NCBI GenBank assembly: GCA_040390045.1
Contig: JAZJZC010000007.1
Coordinates: 1 to 36,286, forward strand
Origin: Patescibacteria group bacterium
GTDB taxonomy: Bacteria; Patescibacteriota; Minisyncoccia; Phycocordibacterales; SIBU01
Direction of reading: 5' to 3'
Length of the DNA stretch: 36,286 bases
In this document: in pieces, positions 17 through 27,802 of the stretch
Numbering within the stretch: the stretch's first letter is position 1
Layout of the letters: every line of letters starts with the position of its first letter
Made by a program: the position numbers and the translations under genes
The notes under the pieces: generated by a model
Database searches by the model: none
Seen by the model: the letters and a program-made list of their open reading frames with translations, nothing else
What the model was told of the DNA's origin: nothing

Positions 17-1864
17 TTAAATTTCTTTGAAGATAGGCGTAATCACCTCAACGTTAAGATGCAAGAGGCCGTCAGGTGGAGTTACTGAAGCCGAAGTTCC
101 TGTTATCAAAATGTCATATATTCCATCGAGAATTTGTCTGTTGGCCTTAATTCTCATGTATAACCCCGCTGTGTAATGATCCTTGTCTATTATCCGGGTA
201 GGAGCGGAAATTTTCAAATCCTTATCTGTATAAAATTCATACGTGAGTGGAACAGCTTGGTTTCCTAAAATAAACGCTGGCAAGGCTTTACCAGGCTCAC
301 CTCCCACTGTAACCGGATCAGAGAAACCACCGAAAGCGCTGATCTTCACATGAGTTGGAACTGAACTAGCGCTCTGTCCTACGAATTTCATCGGCACTTC
401 TATTGGATCGACGATCAAACTAAAGTCTCCAGTCGGTGTTGGGTTTATAAGTAACGGAATTGAACATTGCTCATCAGAAACAACCTTGGGTCTAAGAGAG
501 CTATCCGTAACCGTGACAAAGGCATATTTCACGCCAGAGGTGTCGTAATTGAGAGTCGCAACGTTTGAGGCTTGTGGGGCGCTCAACGCTTCAGACTGAT
601 CTTTGCGCCATTGGTAAGTAAAGGGAGCTGTACCGCCAGAAACAGAGGCTGACCAGGTAATATTTTGTGGCAATCCAACAACCGCTCCGGTTGATGAAGG
701 AGGATCAGTTCTCTGGCAACTAGCCGAAAATTCAGCGGGAATATTTGGCCTAACGGTAACGGTCGCTGTTTTAGTTTCGTCAGAAAAACCACTCTTTGAA
801 CAGGTAACACTATAGGTTGTTGTAGTTACAGGCTGTGTGGCAAAATCGCCACCAGTTCCAATCGGACCGTCAGAAAAACTAGGAGATCCAATGGTGCGTT
901 CGCAAGAGTCGGCGTTTGAGGATAATTTCAATAGGGTTGTTCCACCACGAGTGATCGACTGAGGAAAAGCTGTGAAATCTACTGTAAAATTTCCTGAAAC
1001 TGGCGCCCAGAAATAATAATCAGAACAATTGTTATCTTCACCGTCTGGGCCTTCGTCGATTACTCCGGGGTTTTCAGGCGGTATGTCAATACAGTAACGA
1101 AAATCATATCCATCTGGATTGTCGGCTAATGTCTCAGCATTAAAATTTCCACTAACAGTTACGGCCTTAGTTTGTCCAGCTAATAAACCACCTGACACTT
1201 GCGTTGGAAACATCGGCGATAAATATAAATTATCCGACTCCTTGTGTTTTTTTTGCTGAAGCGAAACTTTAAAATTTTGAACAAAACTTGCACCAATATT
1301 TTGAGGGTCAACGCGGAAATTAATGGTGTTTGAAACGCCCGGTATATATTTCGAACTTCCGTTGTTAGCTGGATGGTTTAAGCCAGGACCCGCGCCTTCG
1401 GCACCGAGTGGAGTGAGGTCGGGCTTGCCACCGACAGTCACTGAACCGCTACAAGTTTTGGTTACAGTTATCTGTTTAAGAATGGTCGGGTCTATGCCGG
1501 GAATAATCGGAGTGACAGTAACAGAAGCGGTAAAAGTACCGGCAGTTTTGTATGCGACCGTGTAAGAATTTCCATTTTTTGCGCCTGAAGATGAAGAATC
1601 GCCACTAGTCCATGCGTAGTCGTAGGTTTGTGGGGCGGAAGGTAGCGTATTTACTGTCCATGTTGCAGATTGGCCGACTACAATAGATTTAGGATTAACG
1701 GTACAACTAACACTTGGCCTAACGTAGACTGTCACTGGATTACTTGAAACGGGAGCAGCTTCAACAGCCGAAGAGAAAACAAAAAATACTGTCAAGAGAA
1801 GAAAAAGTGACTGGAATTTAGAAATGGAGAATTTTTTAAAATTGAGAGAAAAGTTCTTTTTCAT
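17..1864 (-). CDS. secreted PKD/CARDB-domain surface protein
   Basis: 615 aa. The N-terminus is basic followed by a hydrophobic stretch ending near AVEA-AP (about residue 37), a Sec signal peptide. A PKD-like module follows (about 50-135), then a CARDB-like module (about 148-290) with the pattern GYDFRYC-x-D-x-PP...NNCS, a short Ig-like module (about 293-372) with the CSKSG ending, a second PKD-like module (about 380-470, with WSASVSGGTAPFTYQW), and a C-terminal beta domain ending TPIFKEI. PKD and CARDB modules are known in extracellular adhesins and envelope proteins. The C-terminal domain resembles that of the next gene (1984-4341), which ends KPIFEEF. No catalytic motif is visible. Likely displayed on or released from the cell surface; the ligand is unknown. 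The A/T-rich start region has no Shine-Dalgarno site. Confidence 0.85.
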   Translation of the reverse strand: MKKNFSLNFKKFSISKFQSLFLLLTVFFVFSSAVEAAPVSSNPVTVYVRPSVSCTVNPKSIVVGQSATWTVNTLPSAPQTYDYAWTSGDSSSSGAKNGNSYTVAYKTAGTFTASVTVTPIIPGIDPTILKQITVTKTCSGSVTVGGKPDLTPLGAEGAGPGLNHPANNGSSKYIPGVSNTINFRVDPQNIGASFVQNFKVSLQQKKHKESDNLYLSPMFPTQVSGGLLAGQTKAVTVSGNFNAETLADNPDGYDFRYCIDIPPENPGVIDEGPDGEDNNCSDYYFWAPVSGNFTVDFTAFPQSITRGGTTLLKLSSNADSCERTIGSPSFSDGPIGTGGDFATQPVTTTTYSVTCSKSGFSDETKTATVTVRPNIPAEFSASCQRTDPPSSTGAVVGLPQNITWSASVSGGTAPFTYQWRKDQSEALSAPQASNVATLNYDTSGVKYAFVTVTDSSLRPKVVSDEQCSIPLLINPTPTGDFSLIVDPIEVPMKFVGQSASSVPTHVKISAFGGFSDPVTVGGEPGKALPAFILGNQAVPLTYEFYTDKDLKISAPTRIIDKDHYTAGLYMRIKANRQILDGIYDILITGTSASVTPPDGLLHLNVEVITPIFKEI

Positions 1865-1919
1865 TTATCAAATTATAGCACAGAGAAAAATGGTGTGATG
1901 TTGATAACGGAAACGTAAA

Positions 1920-1955
1920 CCCCCGCAGGCCAAAGGCCTGCGGGGGGGGGGGGGG
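1920..1955. terminator. GC-rich hairpin followed by a 14-G run
   Basis: A 12-bp perfect stem, 1920-1931 with 1935-1946 (CCCCCGCAGGCC, loop AAA). It lies between two minus-strand surface-protein genes and probably ends transcription of the 1984-4341 gene. The 3' arm runs into a homopolymer of 14 G (1942-1955), which replaces the usual A/T flank on that side. Confidence 0.55.
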
Positions 1956-1983
1956 TGGATTACCGAATCCTACGAAATTTTAA

Positions 1984-4341
1984 TTAAAATTCCTCGAAGA
2001 TGGGTTTAGATAAACTCGCATCAAGACTAATGGCCTTCGAATCACTTTTTGCCCCAGAGACGCCGTTTATCGTAAGAACATTTGGATATGATGCCGCAGG
2101 AACTGGCTTACTGGCAATCAAAACCATATCTAATCCATCAGAAAATTGTGCTTGGGAAACTGAAACCGGTGAGGTTACCAAGGCTTGTGTTCCGTGTCGG
2201 TACAAACGAACATTCATGGTTACTCCACCGACAACAACACTTGCGGGTGCACTTATTGTGACATTGCCAACAAAGCCGGGTTCAGGTGAAATAGTAATTC
2301 TAACCGGAGTAGAAACAGCGCCTTCATTAATAAATTTTAGGCTGGCAGTTGTTGCGGAGGTTGTAAGATTGAAGTTCGCATTTGAATCCGTGACGTTCAC
2401 TGATCCACAAGCGATAGGACCGTAGAACAGTGGTGGACTACTGGTATCAGTCACCGTAACAAATCCATATTTTTGACCAGCGAGTGTACCGGCGTAATTG
2501 AGAGAAATCCCCGCGGTTGTATTACCGTTGAGCGGAGCGTCTCCTGTCCAAAGATAGGTGTAGCTCAGACTGCCTCCTTCTGGTGTCGCTGTCCAAATCA
2601 CCGTGTCAGGCGGAACGCTTTGCAAATCTACGCCACCCAACGGTTGTGCGGCAGAACAATGAACGAAAAGCGGCAGACACGCACTACTTGCGGCAGTTAA
2701 GGAAGCCGGCAAATCAGACCAACTATCCCCACCTGGACCTCTCGCCAAAATTTGATATTGATATGAACCACCAGGAGTTAATCCTGAATCGGTAGCAGGG
2801 AGTGCGGCAAAACTAGTAACGTGTAAAATGTCTCCCCAACCAGAACTTGGGCTTGAATCCGGAACAGAATACGGATCTCGCTTGAGGTAATAATCGGTCA
2901 CGGGACCACCTGAGTCTTGAACGAAACTTAGGGAAATTTTTCCTGCGCCGGCGCCACAAGAAGATGTGGTAGCGGTAACATGAGGTTCCCCTGGTTTATC
3001 TACCACTTGCACAAGCACTGTTCCAGTAACAAATTCATTGCCGGCACCGGCCAAACCTAAGGCAGGATCGCTACTAAAACAAGTGATGCCATAAATTTTA
3101 GTACTGGCAGGCGTTACCCATTCATCGCCATCGGCGGTCGTCGCGCTCGGCGGATATGCGACACCTCCACTATTGTAAAAACTAGGAATTTGGCTTCCAC
3201 CAGTATTGACTGGGCTATAGCACCATGCAACGTGTGACGGCGCATAACTTGTAGTACTTACGGGATCCCATTTAATATTTGATGAATCTCCTGGGGGGAT
3301 TACGATAGGCGCACTTGAAAAAGAAATCGCTGGATTGTTGCATAGAGCGTTCGTGTACGTGTACGTAACAACAGCACTACTTGTAGTCTGTGTGAGTGGA
3401 AAATGAGAAAAAGGTCCGGTACCGTAGGGTGAGGATTCAGCAAACGAAGTAGCTGAAGTTGAAACGTCTTGAGTGACATCTATTCCCCCTGCACTCGCGC
3501 TAATGTAATTAGAAAGTTCAGTGGGGTCAACAATGGTAATAACCGGCGCGGCCTGATTGTATGTTGTTGTGCCATTGGTAAATGAACTTGAGCCAACGTA
3601 GTCGAGCGCGCCGTCGAAAGCAGTGATGGCAACCGGAGCAAAAGAATTTGCGAAATAACTTTTTGATGTATGTCCCGGGAGAGTGAAAGTGCTTGTCGCT
3701 AAACTAGAACCGCCAACTGAAATAGTGTGATTGGCAGTGTTTTCCACCTTTTGATTTATTTTGACAATCGAAGTAGGTGCAATCTCTAGAGCGGTGAGAG
3801 TGCCGAGAGAGGGATCAAAATAATTTAAGGTAGCATGCGCAAGCCAGTTGTTTGTTGCAGCTGAAAAATTTATGGTTTGAGTGATTTGGCGGCTTTCAAT
3901 AGGTAGCGTGTTAGCAGAAATAATTGGCGAGTAGCGGTTGCCACCTGGACCCACGGCAACAACTTGATATGAAAACATTGCTCCGTGCGCGAAAGTGCTA
4001 TCAATTGGAGAAAAGTCATTGAGGTCGGTCACATGCTGAATGTCTCCCCAGCCAGAATCGCCACCGGAAAATGGCGATCGACTCAAGTAGTAATCTGTGG
4101 CGGGACCTAGCGTGTCTTGCGCAAAAGAAAGTTTAATTTTGTTGGCGCCAGAAGCACAACTTCCTGTTCCCGCCATAACATACGGAGTGCCGGGCAAATC
4201 TACTGATTGCGCCGAAGAAATATTTGGAACAATGAGCGAGAAAGAAAAAATAAAGATAAAAAGAAATCCGCCTGCGCGCTTAATGAGATGTGAAGCGGCG
4301 AAATTTTTTCCTACTTTTGTTTGAGAAAAAATAGTAGTCAC
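1984..4341 (-). CDS. secreted FN3/Ig-repeat surface protein
   Basis: 785 aa. Signal peptide of about 44 residues (hydrophobic core FLFIFIFSFSLIV, ending SSAQS). Two closely similar fibronectin type III modules, about residues 50-145 and 453-553, share PG-x-P-x-V-x-A, a Cys, TDYYL and GWGDI-x-HVT blocks, so they arose by internal duplication. Between them is a Thr/Ser-rich beta region (about 150-345) and an Ig-like module with a TKIYGITCFS ending. A PKD-like module (about 560-650) and a C-terminal beta domain ending KPIFEEF follow. The C-terminal domain is shared with the 17-1864 protein. An extracellular structural or adhesive role is inferred from the modules; no enzyme motif is seen. Confidence 0.83.
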   Translation of the reverse strand: MTTIFSQTKVGKNFAASHLIKRAGGFLFIFIFSFSLIVPNISSAQSVDLPGTPYVMAGTGSCASGANKIKLSFAQDTLGPATDYYLSRSPFSGGDSGWGDIQHVTDLNDFSPIDSTFAHGAMFSYQVVAVGPGGNRYSPIISANTLPIESRQITQTINFSAATNNWLAHATLNYFDPSLGTLTALEIAPTSIVKINQKVENTANHTISVGGSSLATSTFTLPGHTSKSYFANSFAPVAITAFDGALDYVGSSSFTNGTTTYNQAAPVITIVDPTELSNYISASAGGIDVTQDVSTSATSFAESSPYGTGPFSHFPLTQTTSSAVVTYTYTNALCNNPAISFSSAPIVIPPGDSSNIKWDPVSTTSYAPSHVAWCYSPVNTGGSQIPSFYNSGGVAYPPSATTADGDEWVTPASTKIYGITCFSSDPALGLAGAGNEFVTGTVLVQVVDKPGEPHVTATTSSCGAGAGKISLSFVQDSGGPVTDYYLKRDPYSVPDSSPSSGWGDILHVTSFAALPATDSGLTPGGSYQYQILARGPGGDSWSDLPASLTAASSACLPLFVHCSAAQPLGGVDLQSVPPDTVIWTATPEGGSLSYTYLWTGDAPLNGNTTAGISLNYAGTLAGQKYGFVTVTDTSSPPLFYGPIACGSVNVTDSNANFNLTTSATTASLKFINEGAVSTPVRITISPEPGFVGNVTISAPASVVVGGVTMNVRLYRHGTQALVTSPVSVSQAQFSDGLDMVLIASKPVPAASYPNVLTINGVSGAKSDSKAISLDASLSKPIFEEF

Positions 4342-27285: not shown

Positions 27286-27626
27286 ATGTTATTAAAATAT
27301 AAGAATGACTTCAATTTCAGTAGAAAAATTTTTCAAAAATTACAATTATCAACCCGCAAAGCAGTATGAATAGGATGTACCATACGGGTGCTCGCATTGG
27401 GCCGCCAAGGCGAAATTGTAATATTTTAGATAGAGTGTGCTTCATTTTAATATGGCAGCGCCGAGATTTGCCCGCGACTCAAAATTTTTCGTCAAAAATT
27501 TTGGTCTGGGCACCAGCTCGTCTGTTTTGTCTGCTGACAAAACAAGACTCCGCTGTTCAAATCTCGGTCGCAAGCCAGGCAGTTGGCTTGCTCGCCCGAC
27601 TATATCGTCGCTTTGCTCCTCAATGT
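27286..27626. other. gene-free stretch with tRNA-Pro fragments
   Basis: No convincing gene. It holds a 13-nt direct copy of the tRNA-Pro 3' portion, GCGCCGAGATTTG at 27458-27470 (also 27631-27643 in the tRNA), and a 13-nt inverted T-arm copy, GTTCAAATCTCGG at 27555-27567. Open frames here lack coding character. Confidence 0.6.
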
Positions 27627-27695
27627 CGGGGCGCCGAGATTTGAACTCGGACTGAACGCTCCCAAAGCGTTTATGCTACCGTTACACCACGCCCC
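27627..27695 (-). tRNA. tRNA-Pro(UGG)
   Basis: 69 nt. Acceptor GGGGCGT/GCGCCCC (with one G-U), anticodon stem AACGC/GCGTT around loop TTTGGGA (anticodon UGG, G37), T arm CCGAG-TTCAAAT-CTCGG. The discriminator reads as G, unusual for bacterial tRNA-Pro, which normally has A. CCA is not encoded. Partial copies of both its ends lie nearby (27458, 27555, 27738). Confidence 0.88.
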
Positions 27696-27737
27696 GATTT
27701 TAATTTGCTGCCGTGGAATTTATCCGTCCTTCGGCGG

Positions 27738-27750
27738 ACCACGCCCCGAT
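27738..27750 (-). repeat. copy of the tRNA-Pro 5' end
   Basis: ACCACGCCCCGAT at 27738-27750 repeats exactly the sequence at 27686-27698, the 5' end of the tRNA gene, 52 bp upstream in the sense of transcription. Confidence 0.65.
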
Positions 27751-27802
27751 ACTTATTCCTAGACCGCAAAGCTTAACATAAAAAGATTTAAACGACTACA
27801 AT

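Follow-up and report, generated by a model that had tools for sequence, protein, structure and literature searches.

Why do pieces of a tRNA gene lie around an intact copy of that gene? The question arises at tRNA-Pro (TGG), a minus-strand gene at 27625-27696 (ARAGORN; Rfam tRNA, 61.1 bits) in a window of 36,286 nt, contig JAZJZC010000007.1 of the Patescibacteria group bacterium assembly GCA_040390045.1 (genome G000 below). A first-pass annotation of this window had recorded exact 13-nt copies of parts of the gene on both sides of it and had read them as scars of integration and excision at a tRNA gene, or of repeated duplication. The direct copy at 27458-27470 and the inverted copy at 27555-27567 are present just as it described them; at 27738-27750 a 13-nt match to the 5' end is also found, although 11 of its nucleotides lie inside the gene and the other two match the leader. 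Chance matches of this length are rare: dinucleotide shuffling of the two 300-nt flanks gave a 13-nt match to the gene on either strand in 3 of 2000 trials and an 11-nt match in 38 of 2000, and the two downstream pieces are therefore beyond chance, the upstream piece weakly so. The downstream pieces prove to be arms of one intact, conserved element that is copied behind other tRNAs, and in this respect the picture of scattered scars has to be given up. What survives of it is that the pieces mark something settling at tRNA genes, and that the direct 3' fragment resembles the displaced piece of tRNA that tRNA-targeting elements leave.

Anatomy of the element behind tRNA-Pro

All features of the locus lie on the minus strand and are given here in the direction of the tRNA. 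The gene is followed by a spacer (27601-27624), an inverted copy of the 3' strand of the tRNA acceptor stem (GTCGGGCG, an exact complement minus one G; 27593-27600) and a hairpin, hp1 (27568-27592, from sequence and fold), which is inserted in the inverted arm at the boundary between T-stem and acceptor stem and whose loop contains CTGC, as in many other copies. Next come an exact inverted copy of the T-arm (CCGAGATTTGAAC; 27555-27567), which is the 5' strand of a stem, P1; the conserved 84-nt core (27471-27554), supported by covariance model, fold and covariation; and an exact direct copy of the 3' part of the tRNA from C56 onwards (CAAATCTCGGCGC; 27458-27470), which is the 3' strand of P1. 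The element as a whole is non-coding and about 100-170 nt long.

Full copies elsewhere, read by eye, follow one general order on the tRNA strand: a tRNA ending in GTTC-X, a spacer, X', GAAC, the core and a direct X. In this scheme X' is the reverse-complemented tRNA 3' end, usually interrupted where T-stem and acceptor stem meet by a hairpin whose loop is often CTGC or TAAAC. In the window, X' corresponds to 27593-27600 plus 27555-27567 and X to 27458-27470. The inverted and the direct piece are thus the two strands of one stem, P1.

The interval 27286-27626, which the first-pass annotation had called gene-free, does hold the element, but it overlaps the tRNA by 2 nt and contains a putative 42-aa ORF with an ATG start and a hydrophobic stretch (27317-27445), directly 3' of the element. 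This ORF was rejected as a conserved gene, since its own genome was the only one of 41 to have it. The upstream piece (27738-27750; the tRNA 5' end plus two leader bases) lies about 52 nt upstream of tRNA-Pro beside a hairpin. It is absent from the element anatomy found at other loci and is perhaps a remnant of an older tRNA gene.

Distribution

A blastn search of the region against its own genome found eight further places, seven of which lie 20-215 nt 3' of a same-strand tRNA (Val, Ala, Cys, Ser, Ile, Lys and Val); the eighth has no called tRNA. With a covariance model built from seven copies, whose E-values are rough, G000 gave at least 14 matches at E<=4.4e-5 and two weaker ones at E<=1 (150 of 330 candidates scored), and a scan of its tRNA loci added a 45.5-bit copy behind Ser-TGA together with weaker ones. 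The window copy itself scores 115.9 bits at 27464-27564.

Within the order, 32 of 60 genomes, including G000, have model matches at E<=0.01, and at this threshold 28 have none. In a sample of the phylum, searched with stricter filters than the order, 14 of 286 genomes matched, G000 included. Nine loci of this sample were read: eight have a same-strand tRNA gene directly upstream, and the remaining one is the third member of a tandem series that follows a tRNA. A 17-nt core pattern found 117 genome loci, of which 39 of the 80 listed were tested with the model, as were all 11 viral ones. The model matched all 17 tested loci titled Candidatus Taylorbacteria, Nomurabacteria, Vogelbacteria, Yonathbacteria, Paceibacterota or Parcubacteria and all five titled just 'bacterium', none of the 17 titled otherwise, and none of the 11 viral contigs. 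Carriage by phages or plasmids was dismissed, since blastn gave no match in the phage or plasmid collection.

For the survey of copies, 100 of the 105 loci L017-L121 were searched, omitting L030, L062, L070 and L077 (repeats of other loci) and L121. Of the 118 rows obtained, 108 were analysed after removal of four duplicate places and six weak rows (E >= 0.002). Loci beyond the best one per genome came from eleven genomes only (G001, G002, G003, G010, G013, G029, G043, G045, G048, G049 and G051), and the 108 copies are therefore not a random sample.

A conserved three-way junction

The core folds as a three-way junction in which P1 is formed by the arms, P2 carries a GGA/GA internal loop and an AGCA-type tetraloop, and P3 ends in a GACG-type tetraloop. 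In the window, the fold places P2 at 27514-27555 (AGCA cap) and P3 at 27470-27511 (GACG cap), with a stability z-score of -9.9 against shuffled sequences.

This structure is conserved across copies. In the seven seed copies, 96.9% of 254 cells are paired and 24 of 37 pairs show changes on both sides. Among 113 distinct rows, 93.6% of 3943 cells are paired against a shuffled mean of 63.0%, and 1145 cells are changed on both sides against a shuffled mean of 329; neither value was reached in any of 500 shuffles, although the 113-row alignment was fitted to the covariance model and thus leans towards it. When the partner column was slid by 1-3 positions, pairing fell to 36-50%. We used cell counts as the evidence for covariation, since all 37 of 37 pairs have at least one both-side change but shuffling already gives a mean of 33.1 such pairs.

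Of 107 cores, 98 fold more stably on the tRNA-sense strand. Inner G-U pairs make up 3.3% on the sense strand and 2.2% on the other, which is a weak test of RNA against DNA, type B cores holding a fixed G-U when read by eye. In Rfam 15, window positions 27400-27800 matched tRNA and no other family at an E-value limit of 5, and the cores of four further loci had no match over the core at a limit of 1; a further search of the loci found a tmRNA in one and tRNAs in four, none of them over the core. Three loci in three genomes (L028, L084 and L112) have a variant core whose P3 contains an additional hairpin of about 42 nt.

Target genes and breakpoints

The element is positioned behind tRNA genes: 75 of the 108 copies start 19-88 nt 3' of a same-strand tRNA gene and 89 lie within 300 nt of one, these 89 spanning 20 amino-acid types. 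Its two arms copy the end of the gene at hand, one in inverted and the other in direct orientation. For the 75 close copies, the longest match of an arm to its own tRNA has a median of 11 nt (inverted) and 13 nt (direct), against 6 and 5 nt for other isotypes and 6 nt for an upstream control, yet the own tRNA beats every other isotype in only 38 of the 75 for the inverted arm and in 47 for the direct arm.

Breakpoints were counted in copies with a placeable acceptor stem and a long enough match, which for the direct arm (>=11 nt) left 46 of the 75. They concentrate at G53/T54 in the inverted arm (-20/-19 from the discriminator; 35 of 69 copies) and at C56 in the direct arm, where 18 of 46 copies start, most of the others starting within the T-arm. 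The direct copy ends 0 to +2 nt from the discriminator in 24 of 46 cases and at least 8 nt beyond it in nine. The latter include L066 and L076, which belong to a second class of site, the acceptor end itself, exemplified by L066, L056, L092, L093 and L106.

The same signal is seen when tRNA genes are taken as the starting point. A copy of the tRNA's own 3' end (>=10 nt) lies downstream of 21 of 45 tRNAs in G000 and of 16 of 44 in its congener G003, with two and no upstream copies, respectively; in the control G005, a complete genome of the same order that has no model match and was examined at 31 of its 37 tRNAs, a downstream copy was found at none of the 31 and an upstream copy at two. More than 100 nt separate 33 of the 108 copies from any called upstream tRNA. 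Among these, L066, L076 and L026 are second or third tandem copies, L067, L075 and L119 stand behind topA, and L022 comes after a 3' end of tRNA-Asp type that was missed by ARAGORN.

topA as a second target

Copies at the 3' end of topA occur in G003 (L067) and G029 (L119), where the reading frames match the topoisomerase I zinc ribbon, and in G001 (L075), where the frame was read by eye. At L067 (about 390-690) the topA 3' end is found twice around the core with the peptide kept, and the displaced and the intact end differ at 12 synonymous codons and two nonsynonymous ones, one of these at the core junction. The pattern suggests two once-functional ends, as if the end had been exchanged and not duplicated. 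An integrating element that brought its own copy of the target's tail would leave just such a pair. This reading depends on one locus, because the ends at L119 are nearly identical and those at L075 are diverged and shifted; the repeats in G029 (about 60 nt) and G001 show no countable synonymous excess.

At L067 the inverted arm is closer, by eye, to the intact than to the displaced topA end. Since the inverted arm copies the upstream, intact end and not the displaced one, the two probably arise or travel together.

Evidence on mobility

Near-identical cores sit behind different tRNAs of one genome. The cores of L023 and L024 are 100% identical and lie behind Arg-CCG and Arg-GCG, with exact identity stopping 2 and 5 nt outside the match; those of L092 and L093 are 99% identical behind Lys and Arg, and here identity of the flanks ends at once. 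In such pairs the short direct arm travelled with the core and does not match the new site, which is a point against the explanation favoured below.

Occupancy of syntenic tRNAs also differs between the two congeners. The window and G003 share the syntenic cluster Gly-TCC, Pro-TGG, Gly-GCC, Arg-TCG, in which the element stands at Pro and not at Arg-TCG in the window, but at Arg-TCG and not at Pro in G003; Val-GAC is occupied in G000 and empty in G003. At four orthologous tRNAs (Ile, Arg-GCG, Arg-CCG and Cys) both congeners have arms around different cores, as read by eye, which could be core replacement or fast divergence. No two near-identical flanks, one with and one without the element, were found, and neither a transposition event nor an excised or circular form was seen; both points count against mobility. 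The nearest-neighbour core came from the same genome in 16 of 90 cases (shuffled mean 6.0) and from the same amino acid in 15 of 90 (5.3); both are mildly enriched and neither dominates, and core similarity was set aside as a tracker of either.

Taken together, the identical cores, the differing occupancy, the tandem copies and the topA site argue for a mobile module.

Candidate enzymes and known systems

At E<=0.001, G000, G001 and G013, which carry 14, 9 and 10 copies, have no match to Y1_Tnp (PF01797 in the G000 search) or RVT_1. Y1_Tnp occurs in 39 of the 60 order genomes and does not follow copy number, and both a reverse transcriptase and a Y1 transposase were rejected as partners, their presence not tracking the element. 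The single Phage_integrase match in G000 is the Xer-like protein of the window, about 7 kb from the element, which scores 124 bits against an integron-integrase cut-off of 265; G001, 89% complete and with nine copies, has none. A dedicated tyrosine integrase was likewise rejected, with exactly one match in 43 of the 60 order genomes, none in four and more than one in 13.

Crossover subsites in tRNA genes, according to the consulted part of PMC4383910, are the anticodon loop, the T loop and the junction of T and acceptor stems. Like the tRNA-targeted islands of tyrosine integrases (Islander), the element leaves the target whole on one side and a displaced 3' fragment on the other, has breakpoints in the T-loop and uses a gene 3' end as another target. 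Unlike them, it is about 170 nt long and non-coding with no integrase gene inside, and it has an inverted copy of the target arm, a conserved folded core and many copies per genome. REPs are described, in the portion of PMC3733652 used here, as palindromes of 20-40 bp with a GTAG or CGTC tag. With REP/RAYT systems and MITEs the element shares being short, non-coding, palindromic, dispersed and without an enzyme of its own; it differs from REP/RAYT in its 84-nt three-way junction tied to tRNA genes, its target-like arms and the absence of Y1_Tnp matches in G000.

The attC site of integrons is a hairpin. The element resembles it in its folded, strand-biased structure of conserved shape and variable sequence beside a fixed site, and differs in having a three-way junction and in that G000 shows no integron integrase. 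From retrons and other retroelements it is set apart by the lack of an RVT_1 match in G000. Islands, REP/RAYT, integron cassettes and retroelements thus each have a defining feature that the element lacks; by analogy, it works most like a miniature tRNA-targeted integrative element. In the literature searched, which lay mostly outside subscription papers and preprints, we found no description of such an element, and the libraries searched held no matching family.

What the element may be

The explanation we favour, with a confidence somewhat above even, is that of a non-autonomous, non-coding mobile module that integrates at the T-loop of tRNA genes, in a second class at their very 3' end, and in a few genomes at the 3' end of topA. 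Recombination in the T-loop would insert the element, with an unbroken gene upstream and a 3' fragment left displaced on the downstream side, in the way of tRNA-targeting integrases. The folded tRNA-sense strand could be what is recognised, by analogy with a folded attachment site, and the enzyme may act in trans, as the single Xer-like recombinase or the enzyme of a helper element, or may have been lost. The extra inverted arm goes beyond what a plain integrase would make; template switching, which is a guess, or a substrate folded from a single strand may lie behind it.

A rather unlikely alternative, though the one that fares best, is a cis-acting RNA module of the tRNA transcript, whose three-way junction would sense a ligand or protein while the inverted arm had two alternative partners: pairing with the 3' end of the tRNA would block its maturation, and pairing with the direct arm would release it. 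Such a module could have spread between tRNAs through ordinary gene conversion at the conserved T-arm. The covariation of the core and the greater stability of the sense strand in 98 of 107 copies suit an RNA. So does the predicted folding of tRNA plus trailer: in the lowest-energy structure of 59 of 75 copies, 10 or more of the final 22 bases of the tRNA are paired to the trailer; the median gain of tRNA-trailer pairing is 8.8 kcal/mol, an estimate that ignores tRNA modifications and tertiary folding. Against it, terminator-like hairpins separate the core from the tRNA in 10 of 75 copies versus 4 of 75 with one within 120 nt after the core, occupancy differs between congeners, 28 of the 60 order genomes have no match (E<=0.01), and copies also stand behind topA.

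It is quite improbable that the element is a retroelement, in which a structured RNA carrying a tRNA 3' fragment was reverse transcribed and inserted, the direct arm being that fragment. Direct copies do often span the stretch between C56 and roughly the end of the mature tRNA, where the 24 of 46 noted above stop, but G000, G001 and G013 carry their 9-14 copies without an RVT_1 match. Moreover, the repeat can extend beyond a tRNA fragment: nine of 46 direct copies end at least 8 nt past the discriminator and the topA repeat of G029 reaches about 60 nt.

Template switching typically yields one target copied in both orientations, inverted and direct, and the arms, as well as the tandem and partial repeats that occur, would also fit a neutral product of replication at tRNA hairpins that is neither mobile nor functional. 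This would explain the arms but not a core that different genera share and in which 1145 cells are changed on both sides, against 329 in shuffles, and we regard it as very improbable.

Least credible is the scar of island integration and excision or of repeated tRNA duplication: the direct 3' fragment resembles island attachment sites, as far as the part of PMC4383910 consulted describes them, and a tRNA-Pro split by a second one at the syntenic place in G003 (by eye) also speaks for this reading, but a covarying 84-nt core that recurs after many tRNAs is not expected in such a scar.

To return to the mobile module, it is possible, though on balance doubtful, that it represents a new class: a folded three-way junction whose targets are the T-loops of nearly all tRNA genes and the 3' end of topA. 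Its arms would copy each new target, it would move without a dedicated recombinase, and its inverted arm would act, if co-transcribed, as an antisense switch on the tRNA. If mobile, it would be a tiny element multiplying, without any visible enzyme, behind the tRNA genes of bacteria with reduced genomes, and arms that resemble each target would raise the mechanistic question of what copies the target. If regulatory, it would mean that tRNA supply in Patescibacteria is controlled in cis by antisense pairing. In both cases, some 100 natural copies, recent duplicates and differing syntenic occupancy make it a usable model, and it deserves annotation and not dismissal as tRNA debris.

Unusual loci

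Several loci depart from the common arrangement. At the place in G003 syntenic to window positions 27625-27696 (L141:4500-5030), an outer tRNA-Pro is split, by eye, by a second, complete tRNA-Pro, and further tRNA 3' halves lie downstream, as nested or replaced tRNA genes. At L022 (about 1270-1430), what we take to be a group I intron-like 3' end precedes the Asp-type tRNA 3' end, and the core follows. The copy at L050 is about 370 nt from a tmRNA. Four loci (L101, L105, L108 and L043) have a GGTTCTA-type motif upstream with no called tRNA nearby and are possibly odd or interrupted tRNA genes. At L043, a 184-aa NlpC/P60-like ORF (1753-2307, minus strand) lies between tRNA-Ser and the core, an arrangement that recalls a gene cassette.
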